Positions 38,270 through 46,917 of a stretch of 64,000 bases of DNA are shown here, one piece after another. This stretch comes from Sandarakinorhabdus cyanobacteriorum (GTDB taxonomy: Bacteria; Pseudomonadota; Alphaproteobacteria; Sphingomonadales; Sphingomonadaceae). The stretch is from NCBI RefSeq assembly GCF_002251755.1, contig NZ_NOXT01000111.1, positions 1 through 64,000 on the forward strand, in the 5' to 3' direction. Each line of letters starts with the position of its first letter. Positions within the stretch are counted from its first letter, which is position 1. The notes beneath the pieces were generated by a model. The model was not told the origin of the DNA. It worked only from the letters and a program-made list of their open reading frames with translations, and did not search any database. A program made the translations under genes and the position numbers.

Positions 38270-40309
38270 TTATTTCCACCCATCCTTCAGCACCGGCGAC
38301 TCCTCTTCGCCCATTTGTTCCAGCACGGCGATGATGCGGTCGCGGCCCACGTCCTTCTCCGCCCAGAACATCGGGCCGCCGCGATAGACCGGCCAGCCAT
38401 AGCCGTTGATCCAGACGATATCGATGTCGCTGGCGCGCTGGGCCTTGCCTTCGGCGAGGATGCGGGCGCCTTCGTTCACCATCGGGAACAGGCAGCGTTC
38501 CAGGATTTCCTGATCGTCGATGGTGCGGCGGTTGATGCCCTTTTCGGCGGCATAGGCATCGATGATGGCCAGCGCCTCCGGATTGGGCGTGCGGTTGCGC
38601 TGCTCGTCATAGACGTAAAAGCCCTTGCCGTTCTTCTGGCCGCGCAGGCCCGCTTCACAGAGGCGATCGCGCACGGTTTCGCCCTTCGACGTTTCCGCAT
38701 TCCAGCCAATGTCGAGGCCGGCGAGATCGCTCATCTGGAACGGGCCCATCGGGAAGCCGAAATCGGTCAGCACGCGGTCGATATCGGCCGGTGCGGCGCC
38801 TTCCAGCATCAAGAGATTGGCCTGTTGCTGGCGGCGGGCCAGCATGCGGTTGCCGATGAAACCATGACACACACCGGCGACAACCGCGATCTTGCCGGTG
38901 GCCTTGCCAATGGCCATTGCGGTGGCGAGGACCTGAGGATCGGTCTTGGCACCGCGCACGACCTCCAGCAGGCGCATCACATTCGCCGGCGAGAAATAAT
39001 GCATGCCGAGCACATATTCCGGGCGGTTGGTGGCCGACGCAATCTCGTCCACATCCAGATAGGAGGTGTTGCTGGCCAGGATGGCGCCGGGCTTGGCGAT
39101 CTTGTCCAGCTTGCCGAAAATATCCTTCTTAATGGCCATATTCTCGAACACGGCCTCGATGATGAGGTCGCAATCGGCGAGGTCTTCCAGGTTCAGTGAC
39201 GGGGTGAGGCGGCCCATGCGCGCTTCGACCTCGCTCTGCGGGAAGCGGCCCTTGTCGGCGCTGTTCTGGTAATTCTTGCGGATGATGCCAACACCGCGGG
39301 TCAGCGCCTCTTCCTTCATCTCGACGATGGTGACGGGGATGCCGACACTGAGGAAGTTCATCGAAATGCCGCCGCCCATGGTGCCGGCGCCGATCACGCC
39401 AACCTTCTTCACCGGCAGCGGTTGCACATCGGCGGGCAGCCCATCGATCTTGGCGGCAGCGCGCTCGGCGAAGAAGACATGGCGCTGGGCGGCCGATTGC
39501 AGGCCGGTCATCAGCTTCATGAACTCGGTGCGCTCCACCTTCAGGCCTTCGTCAAAGGGCAGGGCGACCGCGGCTTCGATACACTTGATATTGGCTTCCG
39601 GCGCTTCGAAGCCCTTGAAGGCCTTGGCGTTCTTCGCCCTGAACTCGGCAAAGAAGGGGGCCAGGCTGGCCGCGTCGCCGCCCAGCTTGCTGGCATCGTC
39701 GCGCACCTTCTTCAGCGGGCGGCCTTCCGCCACGACCCGGCGGGCAAAGGCGATGGCGCCAGCGGTCAGGTCGCCATCCACCACCTCATCAACCAGGCCG
39801 GTGGCCAGCGCGTCCTTCGCGCCCATCTGGGCGCCGCTGGTCACCATTTCGGTGGCCTTTTTCGCGCCAACGATGCGCGGCAGGCGCTGGGTGCCGCCGG
39901 CGCCGGGCAGCAGGCCCAGCTTCACCTCCGGCAGGCCGAACTTGGCCTTGGCGTCGCTGACCCGGTAATGCGCGCACAGCGCCACTTCAAGGCCGCCGCC
40001 CAGCGCGGTGCCGTGGATGGCAGCGATCACCGGCACCGGGGCCGATTCCATCGCATCCTGCACCGCCGGCAGGGACGCGCCACGCGGCGGCTTGCCGAAT
40101 TCGCTGATGTCGGCCCCGGCGATGAAGGTGCGGCCAGCGCACGCCAGCACGGCGGCCTTCACGGCTGAATCGGCGGCAATCGCGGCAAAGGCACCGGCAA
40201 GGCCATCGCGCACATCGGCCGACAGCGCGTTCACCGGCGGCGAATTGACCGTGACGACGGCGATCTCGCCATCCTTCGAAAGATCGACAACCTGGTTGAT
40301 CGCGGCCAT
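38270..40309 (-). CDS. FadB-type bifunctional enoyl-CoA hydratase / 3-hydroxyacyl-CoA dehydrogenase
   Basis: This 679-residue fatty-acid beta-oxidation enzyme has an N-terminal crotonase domain (about residues 10-190, with [17 protein letters not shown] and [14 protein letters not shown]), an NAD-binding domain beginning [15 protein letters not shown] (about 305-320), and C-terminal dehydrogenase helices ([15 protein letters not shown], then [14 protein letters not shown]). No thiolase gene (fadA) is adjacent. An ancillary enoyl-CoA isomerase activity is common in the family but not shown here. Confidence 0.92.
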
Positions 40310-40739: not shown

Positions 40740-40796
40740 AATCTCGGCCGAATTGGCCGCTGGTAACCATTGAGGTTCACGGGCCGAATTGTGTGC

Positions 40797-40825
40797 TTGT
40801 GGGCGGCGCCTGCGACATTTTATAC
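40797..40825 (+). promoter_or_regulatory. Putative pyruvate dehydrogenase operon promoter
   Basis: TTGTGG (40797-40802), a 17-base spacer and TTATAC (40820-40825) lie about 30 bases before the probable pdhA start. The -10 is a good match. No operator was recognised. Confidence 0.45.
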
Positions 40826-40857
40826 CGGGGCGTCCTCAAGGGAGAAGGGTGACCATC

Positions 40858-41906
40858 TTGGCACGCAGCACAGGCCGCAAGGCCGCATCCGCACCGGCCG
40901 TTCCCAATTGGCCGCGCCCTGACGAACCGGAACGGTTCGTCGCCAGCAAAGAGCAGCTGCTCGACATGTATCGCCAGATGGTGCTGATCCGCCGCTTTGA
41001 GGAGCGGGCGGGCCAGCTTTATGGCATGGGCCAGATCGGCGGTTTTTGCCACCTCTATATCGGCCAGGAGGCCGTGGTGGTGGGCATGCAGGCCGAACTG
41101 GTGCGCGGCGACAGCATCATCACCGGGTATCGCGACCATGGCCACATGCTGGCCTGTGGCATCGATGCCAAGGCGGTGATGGCGGAATTGACCGGCCGCG
41201 CCGCCGGCATCAGCCGCGGCAAGGGCGGCTCGATGCACATGTTCTCGGTCGAGCACGGGTTTTTCGGCGGCCATGGTATTGTGGCCGCCCAGGTGCCGCT
41301 GGGCGCCGGGCTGGGCTTTGCCCACAAATACAAGAATGATGGCCATATCGCCGTGACCTATTTCGGCGATGGCGCGGCCAACCAGGGCCAGGTTTACGAG
41401 GCCTTCAACATGGCCGAGCTGTGGAAGCTGCCGGTGATCTTCGTCATCGAGAACAACCAATATGCCATGGGCACATCGGTGAACCGCGCCAGTTCCGAAG
41501 ACCAGCTCTATCGCCGGGGCGAAAGCTTCCGCGTGCCTGGCCTGCAGGTGGACGGCATGGATGTGCTGGCGGTGCGCGGCGCGGCGAAAACGGCCATCGA
41601 ATGGGTGCGCGCCGGCAACGGGCCGCTGCTGATGGAAATGAAGACCTATCGCTATCGCGGCCATTCGATGAGCGACCCGGCCAAATATCGCAGCCGCGAG
41701 GAAGTGCAGGCGATGCGCGAGAAAAGCGACCCGATCGAGGGGTTGAAGAATGAAATCCTGGACGGCGGTTTTGCCGATGAAGCGGCCTTGAAGGCCATCG
41801 ACCGGGCGGTGCGTGATGAGGTGGCCGAAAGCGCCGATTTCGCGCTGGAGGCGCCCGAACCCGCCCTGTCCGAACTCCACACCGACGTGCTGCTGGGAAC
41901 CTACTG

Positions 41907-41907
<1 letters not shown>
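40858..41907 (+). CDS. pdhA: Pyruvate dehydrogenase E1 component, alpha subunit
   Basis: This is the thiamine-diphosphate-binding half of the E1 heterotetramer, about 349 residues. [17 protein letters not shown], the magnesium/TPP motif [28 protein letters not shown] and the phosphorylation-loop-like [16 protein letters not shown] are all present. A TTG at 40858 (LARSTGRK) is the likely start, with AAGGG eight bases upstream; a GTG at 40849 is the alternative. Its stop overlaps the pdhB start by one base. Confidence 0.93.
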
Positions 41908-43265
<1,358 letters not shown>

Positions 43266-43270
43266 AGCAT

Positions 43271-43924
43271 ATGCAAACCCGCATCGCCGTGATGATCGAC
43301 GGCAGCTATTTCAACCGCGTGTCGAACTTCTACAAGTTTGAACATAACGCCGCGCGGCGGCTATCGCTGTCGGGCCTGATGGAATTCATCCGCGTCGCCA
43401 CCGCCGACATGGAAGATGTGTCGCGCAGCCGGGCGCGCGTGGTGGAGGCGCATTATTTCCGCGGCCGTTACACCGTGCGCGATCTGGAAGACCGGGCCCG
43501 CAGCGCCAATTTCGTCGAGGAATCGCTGCGCAACGACCGCGTGTTCGATCAGATCCTCGCCGCCAGCAACATCACCCCGCACTTCACCCGCATCGACACC
43601 AACAGCGAGCCGCCCAAGGAACAGGGCATCGATGTCTGGCTGGCGCTGGAGGCGTTCGATCTGGCCGTGTCTGACCGCTGCGACGTGGTGGCGCTGGTGG
43701 CTGGCGATGGCGATTTCGTGCCGCTGGTGAAGAAGATCAACGCCATCGGCAAGCGCGCCCTGGTCGTCGCTTGGGGCATGAAATCCGAACAGGGCGCCGA
43801 AGTGCGCTATTCCGGCGCGCTAGCCGGTGCCGCCGCCTATTTCCTCGACATGGCCGACCTGATCGACAATCCGGACGACGACGAACAGCGCGCCCTGGTT
43901 GATCAGCTTTTTGTGGACAATTGA
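43271..43924 (+). CDS. NYN-domain (LabA-like) putative RNase inside the pdh operon
   Basis: This 217-residue protein has the NYN/PIN-like nuclease fold signature: [12 protein letters not shown] with an aspartate near residue 9, [17 protein letters not shown], then [18 protein letters not shown], which supplies further acidic metal ligands. NYN proteins are related to RNA-processing PIN nucleases; substrate is unknown. It begins five bases after pdhB and its stop is one base before pdhC, so it is almost certainly transcribed with them. There is no obvious enzymatic link to pyruvate dehydrogenase. Confidence 0.88.
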
Positions 43925-43925
43925 T

Positions 43926-45196
<1,271 letters not shown>

Positions 45197-45200
<4 letters not shown>

Positions 45201-45517
45201 CGCGATCAAGCGCTGGGCTGTGGCTTTCCCGGCTGGGATCGGTCGTATTCATTCTTTTGTCGGCGGGCGCAGTAATGTCTGTCACAGGCAATGACACACT
45301 GGGCTACGACAAGTTCGGTTCGGACTTTCGCTGGGCAGCCGGGATAGCGCTGGTTGGCCTTCTGGCCGCTGCTATCGCGTGGAAAGTTCGGGTCGTCGGC
45401 TGGATCGGCATTGCTATGGGGCTTGGCTTCGCTTTGCTCATTGCATCAATGCGTGACCAATACAGAAATGGTCCCGGCCCAGACCAAGTAACCGTGACCC
45501 TACCAGCACACGAGTAA
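45197..45517 (+). CDS. Small multi-pass membrane protein of unknown function
   Basis: This 106-residue protein with a GTG start overlaps the pdhC stop by four bases (GTGA). It has three predicted helices (about residues 10-30, 45-62, 66-84) and a polar C-terminus. Codon usage is less GC-rich than the flanking pdhC and lpdA genes, hinting at a recent arrival. I recognise no family. Its place within the operon suggests co-expression, but the function is unknown. Confidence 0.65.
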
Positions 45518-45522
45518 AGCAG

Positions 45523-46917
45523 ATGACCACCTCGCATGATCTCGTCATCCTCGGCTCCGGCCCTGGCGGCTATGTCGCCGCCATCCGCGCGGCGCAGCTT
45601 GGCCTGAAGGTCGCCATCGTCGAGCGCGAGCGGCTGGGCGGCATCTGTCTCAATTGGGGCTGCATTCCGACCAAGGCGCTGCTGCGCACCAGCGAAATCT
45701 ATCATTATATCACCCACGCCGATGCCTATGGGCTGTCGGTGGAAAAGCCGTCGTTTGACCTCAAGAAGGTCACCGACCGGTCCCGCAAGGTGGCGGCGCA
45801 GCTGAACAGTGGCGTCAAATCGCTGATGAAGAAGAACAGGATCGAGGAGGTGGAAGGGCAGGGGCGGCTGACCGGGGCGACCAGCGTTTCCGTCACCACG
45901 GCGAATGGCGAGCGGGTGCTCAGCGCCAAGAATGTCATCGTCGCCACCGGCGCCCGCGCCCGCGATCTGCCGGGCGTGGCGGCGGACGGCAACCGCGTCT
46001 GGACCTATCGCCACGCCATGGTGCCGCCAGCCATGCCGACCAAGCTGCTGGTGATCGGATCGGGTGCGATCGGCATCGAATTCGCCAGCTTCTACAGCGA
46101 CATGGGCGCAAAGGTGACCGTGGTGGAGATGCTCGACCGCATCCTGCCGGTGGAGGATGAGGAGGTTTCAGCCTTTGCCCAGAAGGCGCTGACCAAGCAG
46201 GGCCTGACCATCGTCACTGCTGCCAAGGTGAGCGACGTGACGCCGGGCCCCGATGGCGTGACGGCCACCATCACCACCGCCGATGGCAAGGCGACGACCG
46301 ATCAATACAGCCATGTGATTGTTGCCATCGGCATCGTGCCAAACACGGAAAATATCGGGCTGGAAGGCTTAAGCGTCGTCACCAACCGCGGCCATATCGT
46401 GACGGACAGCATGTGCCGCACCAACGTCCCCGGCCTTTATGCCATTGGCGATGTCACCGGCCCGCCATGGCTGGCGCACAAGGCCAGCCATGAAGGCATC
46501 ATCGCGGTGGAGCATATCGCTGGCGGCCACCCGCATGCGATGGACGTGAGCCGCATTCCGGGCTGCACCTATGCCCGGCCGCAGGTGGCCAGCATCGGCC
46601 TGACCGAAGCCAAGGCCAAGGCCGCCGGCCACAATGTGCGCGTCGGCAAATTCCCCTTCATCGGCAATGGCAAGGCCATCGCGCTGGGGGAGGCGGAAGG
46701 CTTTGTGAAGACGGTGTTTGATGCCACCACCGGGCAGTTGCTGGGCGCCCACATGGTTGGCGCCGAGGTGACCGAGCTCATCCAGGGCTATGCCATCGCC
46801 ATGGGGCTGGAAACGACGGAGGCGGAGCTGATGCACACCATCTTCCCGCACCCGACGCTTTCGGAAATGATGCACGAAAGCGTGCTCGACGCCTATGGCC
46901 GGGCGCTGCATTTCTGA
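45523..46917 (+). CDS. lpdA: Dihydrolipoyl dehydrogenase (E3)
   Basis: This is a 464-residue FAD disulfide oxidoreductase that re-oxidises dihydrolipoamide in the pyruvate dehydrogenase complex. FAD-binding GSGPGGYVAAIRAAQLG, redox disulfide GGICLNWGCIPTKALL, NAD-binding GSGAIGIEFASFYSDMGA, and a C-terminal HTIFPHPTLSEMMHESV with the catalytic His-Glu pair are all intact. It follows the small membrane protein by five bases; its stop overlaps the next gene start by one base. Confidence 0.96.
   Translation: MTTSHDLVILGSGPGGYVAAIRAAQLGLKVAIVERERLGGICLNWGCIPTKALLRTSEIYHYITHADAYGLSVEKPSFDLKKVTDRSRKVAAQLNSGVKSLMKKNRIEEVEGQGRLTGATSVSVTTANGERVLSAKNVIVATGARARDLPGVAADGNRVWTYRHAMVPPAMPTKLLVIGSGAIGIEFASFYSDMGAKVTVVEMLDRILPVEDEEVSAFAQKALTKQGLTIVTAAKVSDVTPGPDGVTATITTADGKATTDQYSHVIVAIGIVPNTENIGLEGLSVVTNRGHIVTDSMCRTNVPGLYAIGDVTGPPWLAHKASHEGIIAVEHIAGGHPHAMDVSRIPGCTYARPQVASIGLTEAKAKAAGHNVRVGKFPFIGNGKAIALGEAEGFVKTVFDATTGQLLGAHMVGAEVTELIQGYAIAMGLETTEAELMHTIFPHPTLSEMMHESVLDAYGRALHF

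Follow-up and report, generated by a model that had tools for sequence, protein, structure and literature searches.

The NYN domain has been characterized as a nuclease in proteins of different architecture. In the available part of its report, the stand-alone, CRISPR-associated NYN protein of B. fragilis is described as a Mn2+-dependent ssRNA nuclease in which the D13A substitution abolished RNA cleavage, and aspartate triads are listed for this protein (D13/D118/D143), for MARF1 (D358/D426/D452) and for VPA0982 from Vibrio parahaemolyticus (D14/D92/D115) (PMC11346440). The NYN domain of MARF1, according to the accessible text of another report, is a Mn2+/Mg2+-dependent endoribonuclease with an acidic pocket consisting of Asp358/426/427/452 (PMC6294520). 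VPA0982 has been solved structurally (PDB 2qip), and the title of its entry gives the function as unknown. With respect to RNA and the pyruvate dehydrogenase (PDH) complex, the available text of a study on the Chlamydomonas chloroplast reports that PDH E2 binds psbA mRNA, and its authors suggest that RNA binding may be old in E2 proteins (PMC3570535).

Here we describe a gene encoding a stand-alone NYN protein of 217 residues in the pdh operon of Sandarakinorhabdus cyanobacteriorum, contained in a 64,000-nucleotide stretch of DNA (the window). The lineage comprises light-harvesting freshwater bacteria, in which the gene of a probable RNA-cutting enzyme stands between two core pdh genes. The protein resembles VPA0982 in fold and in the DVG and SGDGDF motifs, the latter protein being shorter (162 residues). 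It resembles B. fragilis NYN in standing alone and in its aspartate triad as judged by the published positions, but that protein is part of a type III CRISPR locus (PMC11346440), whereas CRISPR genes are absent between the pdh genes here. In MARF1 the fold of the NYN domain is similar, but the domain is one portion of an animal protein of 1742 residues that also contains RRM and LOTUS domains. Our literature searches found no description of an NYN gene within a pdh operon, which is not proof of absence from print; in one proteomics paper an NYN protein and PdhB are reported, each as its own spot. It is therefore the genomic setting that we did not find described, the family itself being known.

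The NYN gene is located between pdhB and pdhC

The gene order at the locus is ftsB-like, pdhA, pdhB, NYN gene, pdhC, a 106-codon open reading frame (ORF) and lpd (Table 1). The initial annotation had put the gene inside the pdh operon, separated by 5 bases from pdhB upstream and by 1 base from pdhC downstream, and its coordinates, strand and spacing proved exact. The end of the gene is invariant among the 9 main-clade genomes listed. The GGTGA string at the end of pdhB may be the ribosome-binding site of the NYN gene, and by eye most main-clade genomes have the same or a similar string, contributed by the pdhB end, ahead of the NYN start. No clear Shine-Dalgarno string was seen by eye before pdhC, either in the window or at the junctions of the relatives, and for this reason translation of pdhC may require the NYN gene to be translated as well. 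In the source genome (G000, 3.53 Mb) the gene is present in a single copy, with a weak second NYN-like match elsewhere that stays below the cut-off.

Table 1. Coordinates of the pdh genes, the NYN gene and its two junctions in the window.
Feature	Position	Strand	Details
pdhA, PDH E1-alpha	40789..41907	+	first pdh gene; TIGR03182 502 bits; last base is first base of pdhB
pdhB, PDH E1-beta with N-terminal lipoyl domain	41907..43265	+	NF008854 748 bits, cut-off 454
pdhB stop / NYN start junction	43261..43271	+	GGTGA of pdhB end directly 5' of NYN ATG
NYN-domain protein gene	43271..43924	+	217 aa; ATG 43271, stop 43922-43924; from ORF, Pfam, fold match, alignments
NYN stop / pdhC start junction	43913..43928	+	last four NYN codons GTG GAC AAT TGA
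pdhC, PDH E2 dihydrolipoamide acetyltransferase	43926..45200	+	TIGR01349 470 bits, cut-off 445; ATG 43926
lpd, E3 dihydrolipoyl dehydrogenase	45523..46917	+	TIGR01350 580 bits

The protein has a predicted NYN fold with an intact acidic site

PF01936 (NYN) matches residues 4-173 with an E-value of 1.3e-13 (52.1 bits, cut-off 24.2), which confirms the NYN assignment made initially. It was the only Pfam model to match at E <= 0.1; the YacP/Rae1 NYN family, which we take to have its own Pfam model, gave no match. LabA-like bacterial proteins (TIGR00288) share the Pfam domain, the aligned part being 119-188, but the score is far under the cut-off of that family (33.4 bits vs 178.45), and among the matches listed the general alphaproteobacterial NYN genes lie away from pdh. 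A sequence search of solved structures detected VPA0982 weakly (E 0.12 with the single sequence, 0.016 with a profile). The AlphaFold model, predicted from 11 genus sequences, was of moderate quality (mean pLDDT 77, pTM 0.77), with pLDDT < 50 at residues 65-87 and 112-117. With this model VPA0982 ranked first in Foldseek (E 9.7e-9). In a second structure aligner it scored Z 16.5 over 156 residues at 19% identity, followed by the mouse and human MARF1 NYN domains (Z 13.9 and 13.6; PDB 5yaa, 6fdl), and the next unrelated row, among the families in the list, had Z 8.2.

The acidic residues D10 (VMIDGSYF), D121 (GIDVWLAL), D146 and D148 (AGDGDF) are all present, in line with the earlier impression of an intact PIN-like site. 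In the HMMER alignment D121 and D146 fall on the aspartates of the DVG and SGDGD motifs in VPA0982, a mapping that assumes an inferred tag offset of 3 residues, and D10 was assigned only from the start of the Pfam match at residue 4 and the fold match from residue 1. Judged from these alignments, D10/D121/D146 would be the counterparts of the published triads, and we propose them as the catalytic residues. All 10 Sandarakinorhabdus-group sequences that extend over D10 keep the triad, and all 11 keep D121/D146; the acidic site therefore shows no sign of inactivation in the main clade.

The gene occurs in two related genera

Sixteen of 60 relatives (own genome included) matched the NYN protein at E 0.001, the close ones in the public set being Sandarakinorhabdus (S. 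rubra, S. limnophila, strain AAP62) or Sphingomonadales/Alphaproteobacteria MAGs. Twelve of the matches fall in the 24 Sandarakinorhabdus-group genomes, 5 of which are < 90% complete or > 5% contaminated; the remaining four lie in other genera and are weak hits of the general NYN kind. The pdhB-NYN-pdhC arrangement was seen with both flanks in 10 of the 12 genus carriers, and in G005 and G014 a contig edge leaves one flank visible. The pdhB-pdhC junction could be read in 9 of the 12 non-carriers, while G002, G016 and G023 returned no pdhB at E 1e-80. In six of the nine (G004, G006, G012, G018, G019 and G021) the first 4 bases of pdhC overlap the end of pdhB, and in three (G007, G008 and G013) a gap of ~270-450 bases contains other ORFs. 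Since half of the genus genomes show no match, the gene is dispensable to the group, and because the gene-free sister species with a clean pdhB-pdhC overlap serve as natural controls, a direct genetic test is feasible.

When 397 family genomes from 96 genera were searched with a profile, 11 carriers in 2 genera were found. In the second genus, g51, five carriers were found among the matches listed, all with the gene in the pdhB-pdhC slot (both flanks seen in 4/5, one contig ending there), and their copies are 41-45% identical to the NYN protein. Among 385 class genomes, the own genome alone matched at E 1e-15. A wider profile (A2) run on 346 order genomes recovered the own genome, 3 of the genus and 2 of g51 at E <= 1e-104, and beyond those six nothing better than 3.5e-9; in 299 phylum genomes, the own genome aside, nothing was better than 6.3e-8. 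In 181 class genomes PF01936 matched in 109 and pdhB in 139. Among the matches listed (150 each), 98 alphaproteobacterial genomes have both genes, and G000 is the only one where they are close (1.2 kb), the next pairs listed being 12.6, 15.8 and 20.1 kb apart. In 75 loci retrieved around weaker NYN hits, no pdh or lpd match was present. The gene is thus not limited to this strain, and its placement is more than chance, since several species and a second genus share the position. A wider expectation that pdh operons often contain NYN genes is nevertheless wrong: among the genomes sampled the trait belongs to two related genera, and elsewhere it looks rare.

An rpoB tree of 29 genomes unites the nine sampled genus carriers in a single clade (95/97) and places g51, with modest support (91/88), as the sister group of Sandarakinorhabdus plus G026. 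Presence and absence of the gene require two changes on this tree, hence a single early acquisition followed by loss in G026 and in the other Sandarakinorhabdus, or two independent insertions into the same slot. The NYN tree recovers these groups too. The pdhB tree, in contrast to that of rpoB, puts G017 among the non-carriers, so that the gene or the operon may have been transferred. Plasmid- or phage-borne spread was rejected: the protein had no match in plasmid and phage collections (E 1e-3) or in viral contigs.

The gene is under purifying selection and codon-adapted

Compared to G000, main-clade dN/dS values were 0.086-0.187 for the NYN gene (7 comparisons), 0.076-0.147 for pdhB (7), 0.110-0.130 for pdhC (6) and 0.076-0.125 for lpd (6); the pdhA rows of G011 (0.62) and G020 (0.37) were left out, their frames being mis-cut (GC3 0.42-0.64 in four of seven pdhA rows). 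The NYN gene is therefore under purifying selection resembling that on pdhB, and is not a passenger in the main clade. Its dN/dS rises to 0.35 with G017 and 0.70 with G076 of the second genus, indicating that the protein was freer or changed on the deeper branches; dN to G017 and to the second genus was 0.31 and 0.55 for NYN, against 0.16 and 0.17 for pdhB.

The codon adaptation index (CAI) of NYN, with each genome's own rpoB as the reference, exceeded that of pdhB in 9/10 carriers computed (0.589-0.743 in those nine), and in G020 the two values (0.477 vs 0.480) were taken as equal. Amino-acid-matched z-scores were 0.5 to 3.0. Codon adaptation is thus about equal to or above that of the pdh genes, a trend rather than more, because rpoB is the sole reference and the gene is short. 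It argues against a rarely made toxin. A type II toxin-antitoxin system was rejected on other grounds: the gaps of 5 and 1 bases leave no room for an antitoxin gene.

We lean, with modest confidence, towards a constitutive, metal-dependent NYN endoribonuclease that is co-translated with PDH and has resided in the pdh operon since the ancestor of Sandarakinorhabdus and its sister genus. From its domain and acidic site, the protein would be a small stand-alone NYN-type (PIN-like) endoribonuclease requiring a divalent metal. Its gene would have entered the pdhB-pdhC junction, or been inherited there, in an ancestor of both genera. The tight start-stop spacing would have it translated within the PDH polycistron, so that its amount may track that of PDH, and the enzyme would presumably work in constitutive RNA processing or decay, not as a toxin. 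Points that weigh against this reading are the moderate quality of the model, Asp to Glu changes in two of the five second-genus copies, the lack of the gene in half of the genus genomes and its fast divergence from G017 and the second genus. A selected, codon-adapted RNase-like gene between E1-beta and E2 suggests that RNA turnover is tied by dosage to the entry of carbon into the TCA cycle.

Is the NYN gene a nuclease cargo?

If the junctions of the operon accept single accessory genes, the NYN gene might be a defence-type or selfish nuclease cargo, for example an anti-phage one. We consider this unlikely. The pdhB-pdhC slot of G008 (L114) holds a DUF4268 ORF (27.5 bits vs cut-off 27), the ORFs in G013 and G007 belong to no family above cut-off, and in G026 (L120) ~990 bases contain two hydrophobic ORFs together with a short sequence similar to the pdhC start (MPFDVTMPALTATMESGT), as if an insertion had duplicated that start. 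Because relatives hold other ORFs there, the slot is tolerant of extra genes, and this tolerance is the main support for a cargo; DUF559-like ORFs in the pdhC-lpd slot point the same way. PADLOC models also matched the protein weakly, namely HEC-09 (27 bits, E 7.1e-7; no cut-off given) and NYN (E 5.2e-6), and the genomes lacking the gene showed no match. The main points against it are the length of residence and the constraint: the gene occupies the same slot in two genera, its tree agrees with that of rpoB in outline, its dN/dS is as low as that of pdhB, and searches of the plasmid and phage collections (E 1e-3) and of viral contigs gave no match.

Does the putative nuclease act on its own operon?

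The initial annotation suggested that the enzyme could tune the mRNA of the operon or respond to metabolic state, the second of which we take as conjecture. In such self-regulation, which we regard as improbable, the NYN nuclease would cut the pdh polycistron and set the E1:E2 ratio. The gene does stand exactly between E1-beta and E2, and its synonymous variation is reduced (0.196 vs 0.277 expected from amino-acid-matched codons of its neighbours, z -4.45; pdhA was left out of the test). However, synonymous variation was lowered also in a control, the 3' part of fadJ (window 38270-39050, last 260 codons; z -3.7 and -4.7), and the reduction in NYN fits codon adaptation. A column-shuffle scan for conserved RNA structure revealed nothing special in the NYN gene (mean z -0.10) or at its junctions, the strongest windows lying in gap-rich pdhC linker stretches and in pdhB. 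With this null result, tuning of the operon's own mRNA is left without support, and the sequence itself points to no particular substrate. An overlapping gene behind the low synonymous change was rejected as well: forward alternative frames contain stops in nearly all species, and an antisense in-register frame, open in several genomes, has stops in G000, G009 and G011 and is not conserved.

Could the protein be a partner of PDH?

After a variable stretch, the C-terminal end of the protein (LFVDN, LFVES, LFVAD or IFLPD; window 43904-43921) is kept between genera, with F214 invariant, and could be a docking motif. A tie between NYN and PDH is conceivable by analogy with the Chlamydomonas E2. 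Such a motif might dock an RNase dedicated to PDH in these two related, mostly phototrophic genera, whose synthesis would keep pace with that of E1-beta and E2 and which would couple acetyl-CoA supply to the decay or processing of specific mRNAs, a specialization to which we give a low probability; if true, it would be a bacterial RNase counterpart of the RNA-binding PDH E2. A non-catalytic PDH partner or translation spacer, whose NYN fold would bind RNA or protein, we find more doubtful still. The putative docking end and the RNA-binding E2 of the chloroplast (PMC3570535, in the part available) are compatible with it, as are the second-genus copies (n=5), two of which have Asp to Glu changes, at D10 in G217 and at D121 in G262 (loci L066, L068), that could weaken catalysis. 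It is at odds with the full triad in all main-clade copies.

Finally, a neutral passenger ORF without function, which the absence of the gene from half of the genus might suggest, is very improbable, being ruled out for the main clade by dN/dS and opposed by a triad and slot kept in two genera. The gene does not replace a general NYN gene either, as carriers with and without a second NYN gene both occur.

Phototrophy and the pdhC-lpd junction

Phototrophy was considered as the reason for the presence of the gene and rejected, carriers and non-carriers being alike. Reaction-centre genes were found in 27/29 genomes, namely 16/17 carriers (absent in G005, 75% complete) and 11/12 non-carriers (absent in G019). 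G019 is 100% complete, yet lacks the reaction-centre L/M genes.

The pdhC-lpd junction, compared in the window (45197-45517) and at L101, L104, L107, L111-L114, L116, L118, L119 and L122, is even more variable than the pdhB-pdhC junction. The gap is 0-36 bases in some species and ~290-640 bases with unrelated ORFs in others. Several of these ORFs are alike, and the G018 copy is a DUF559 member (3.9e-38) flanked by GC-rich repeat-like sequence, in a family scan that covered this ORF and the window ORF only. The latter, the 106-codon ORF (window 45197-45517), was absent from all other genomes compared, and its CAI is very low (0.116); it is either a recent arrival or a spurious ORF.
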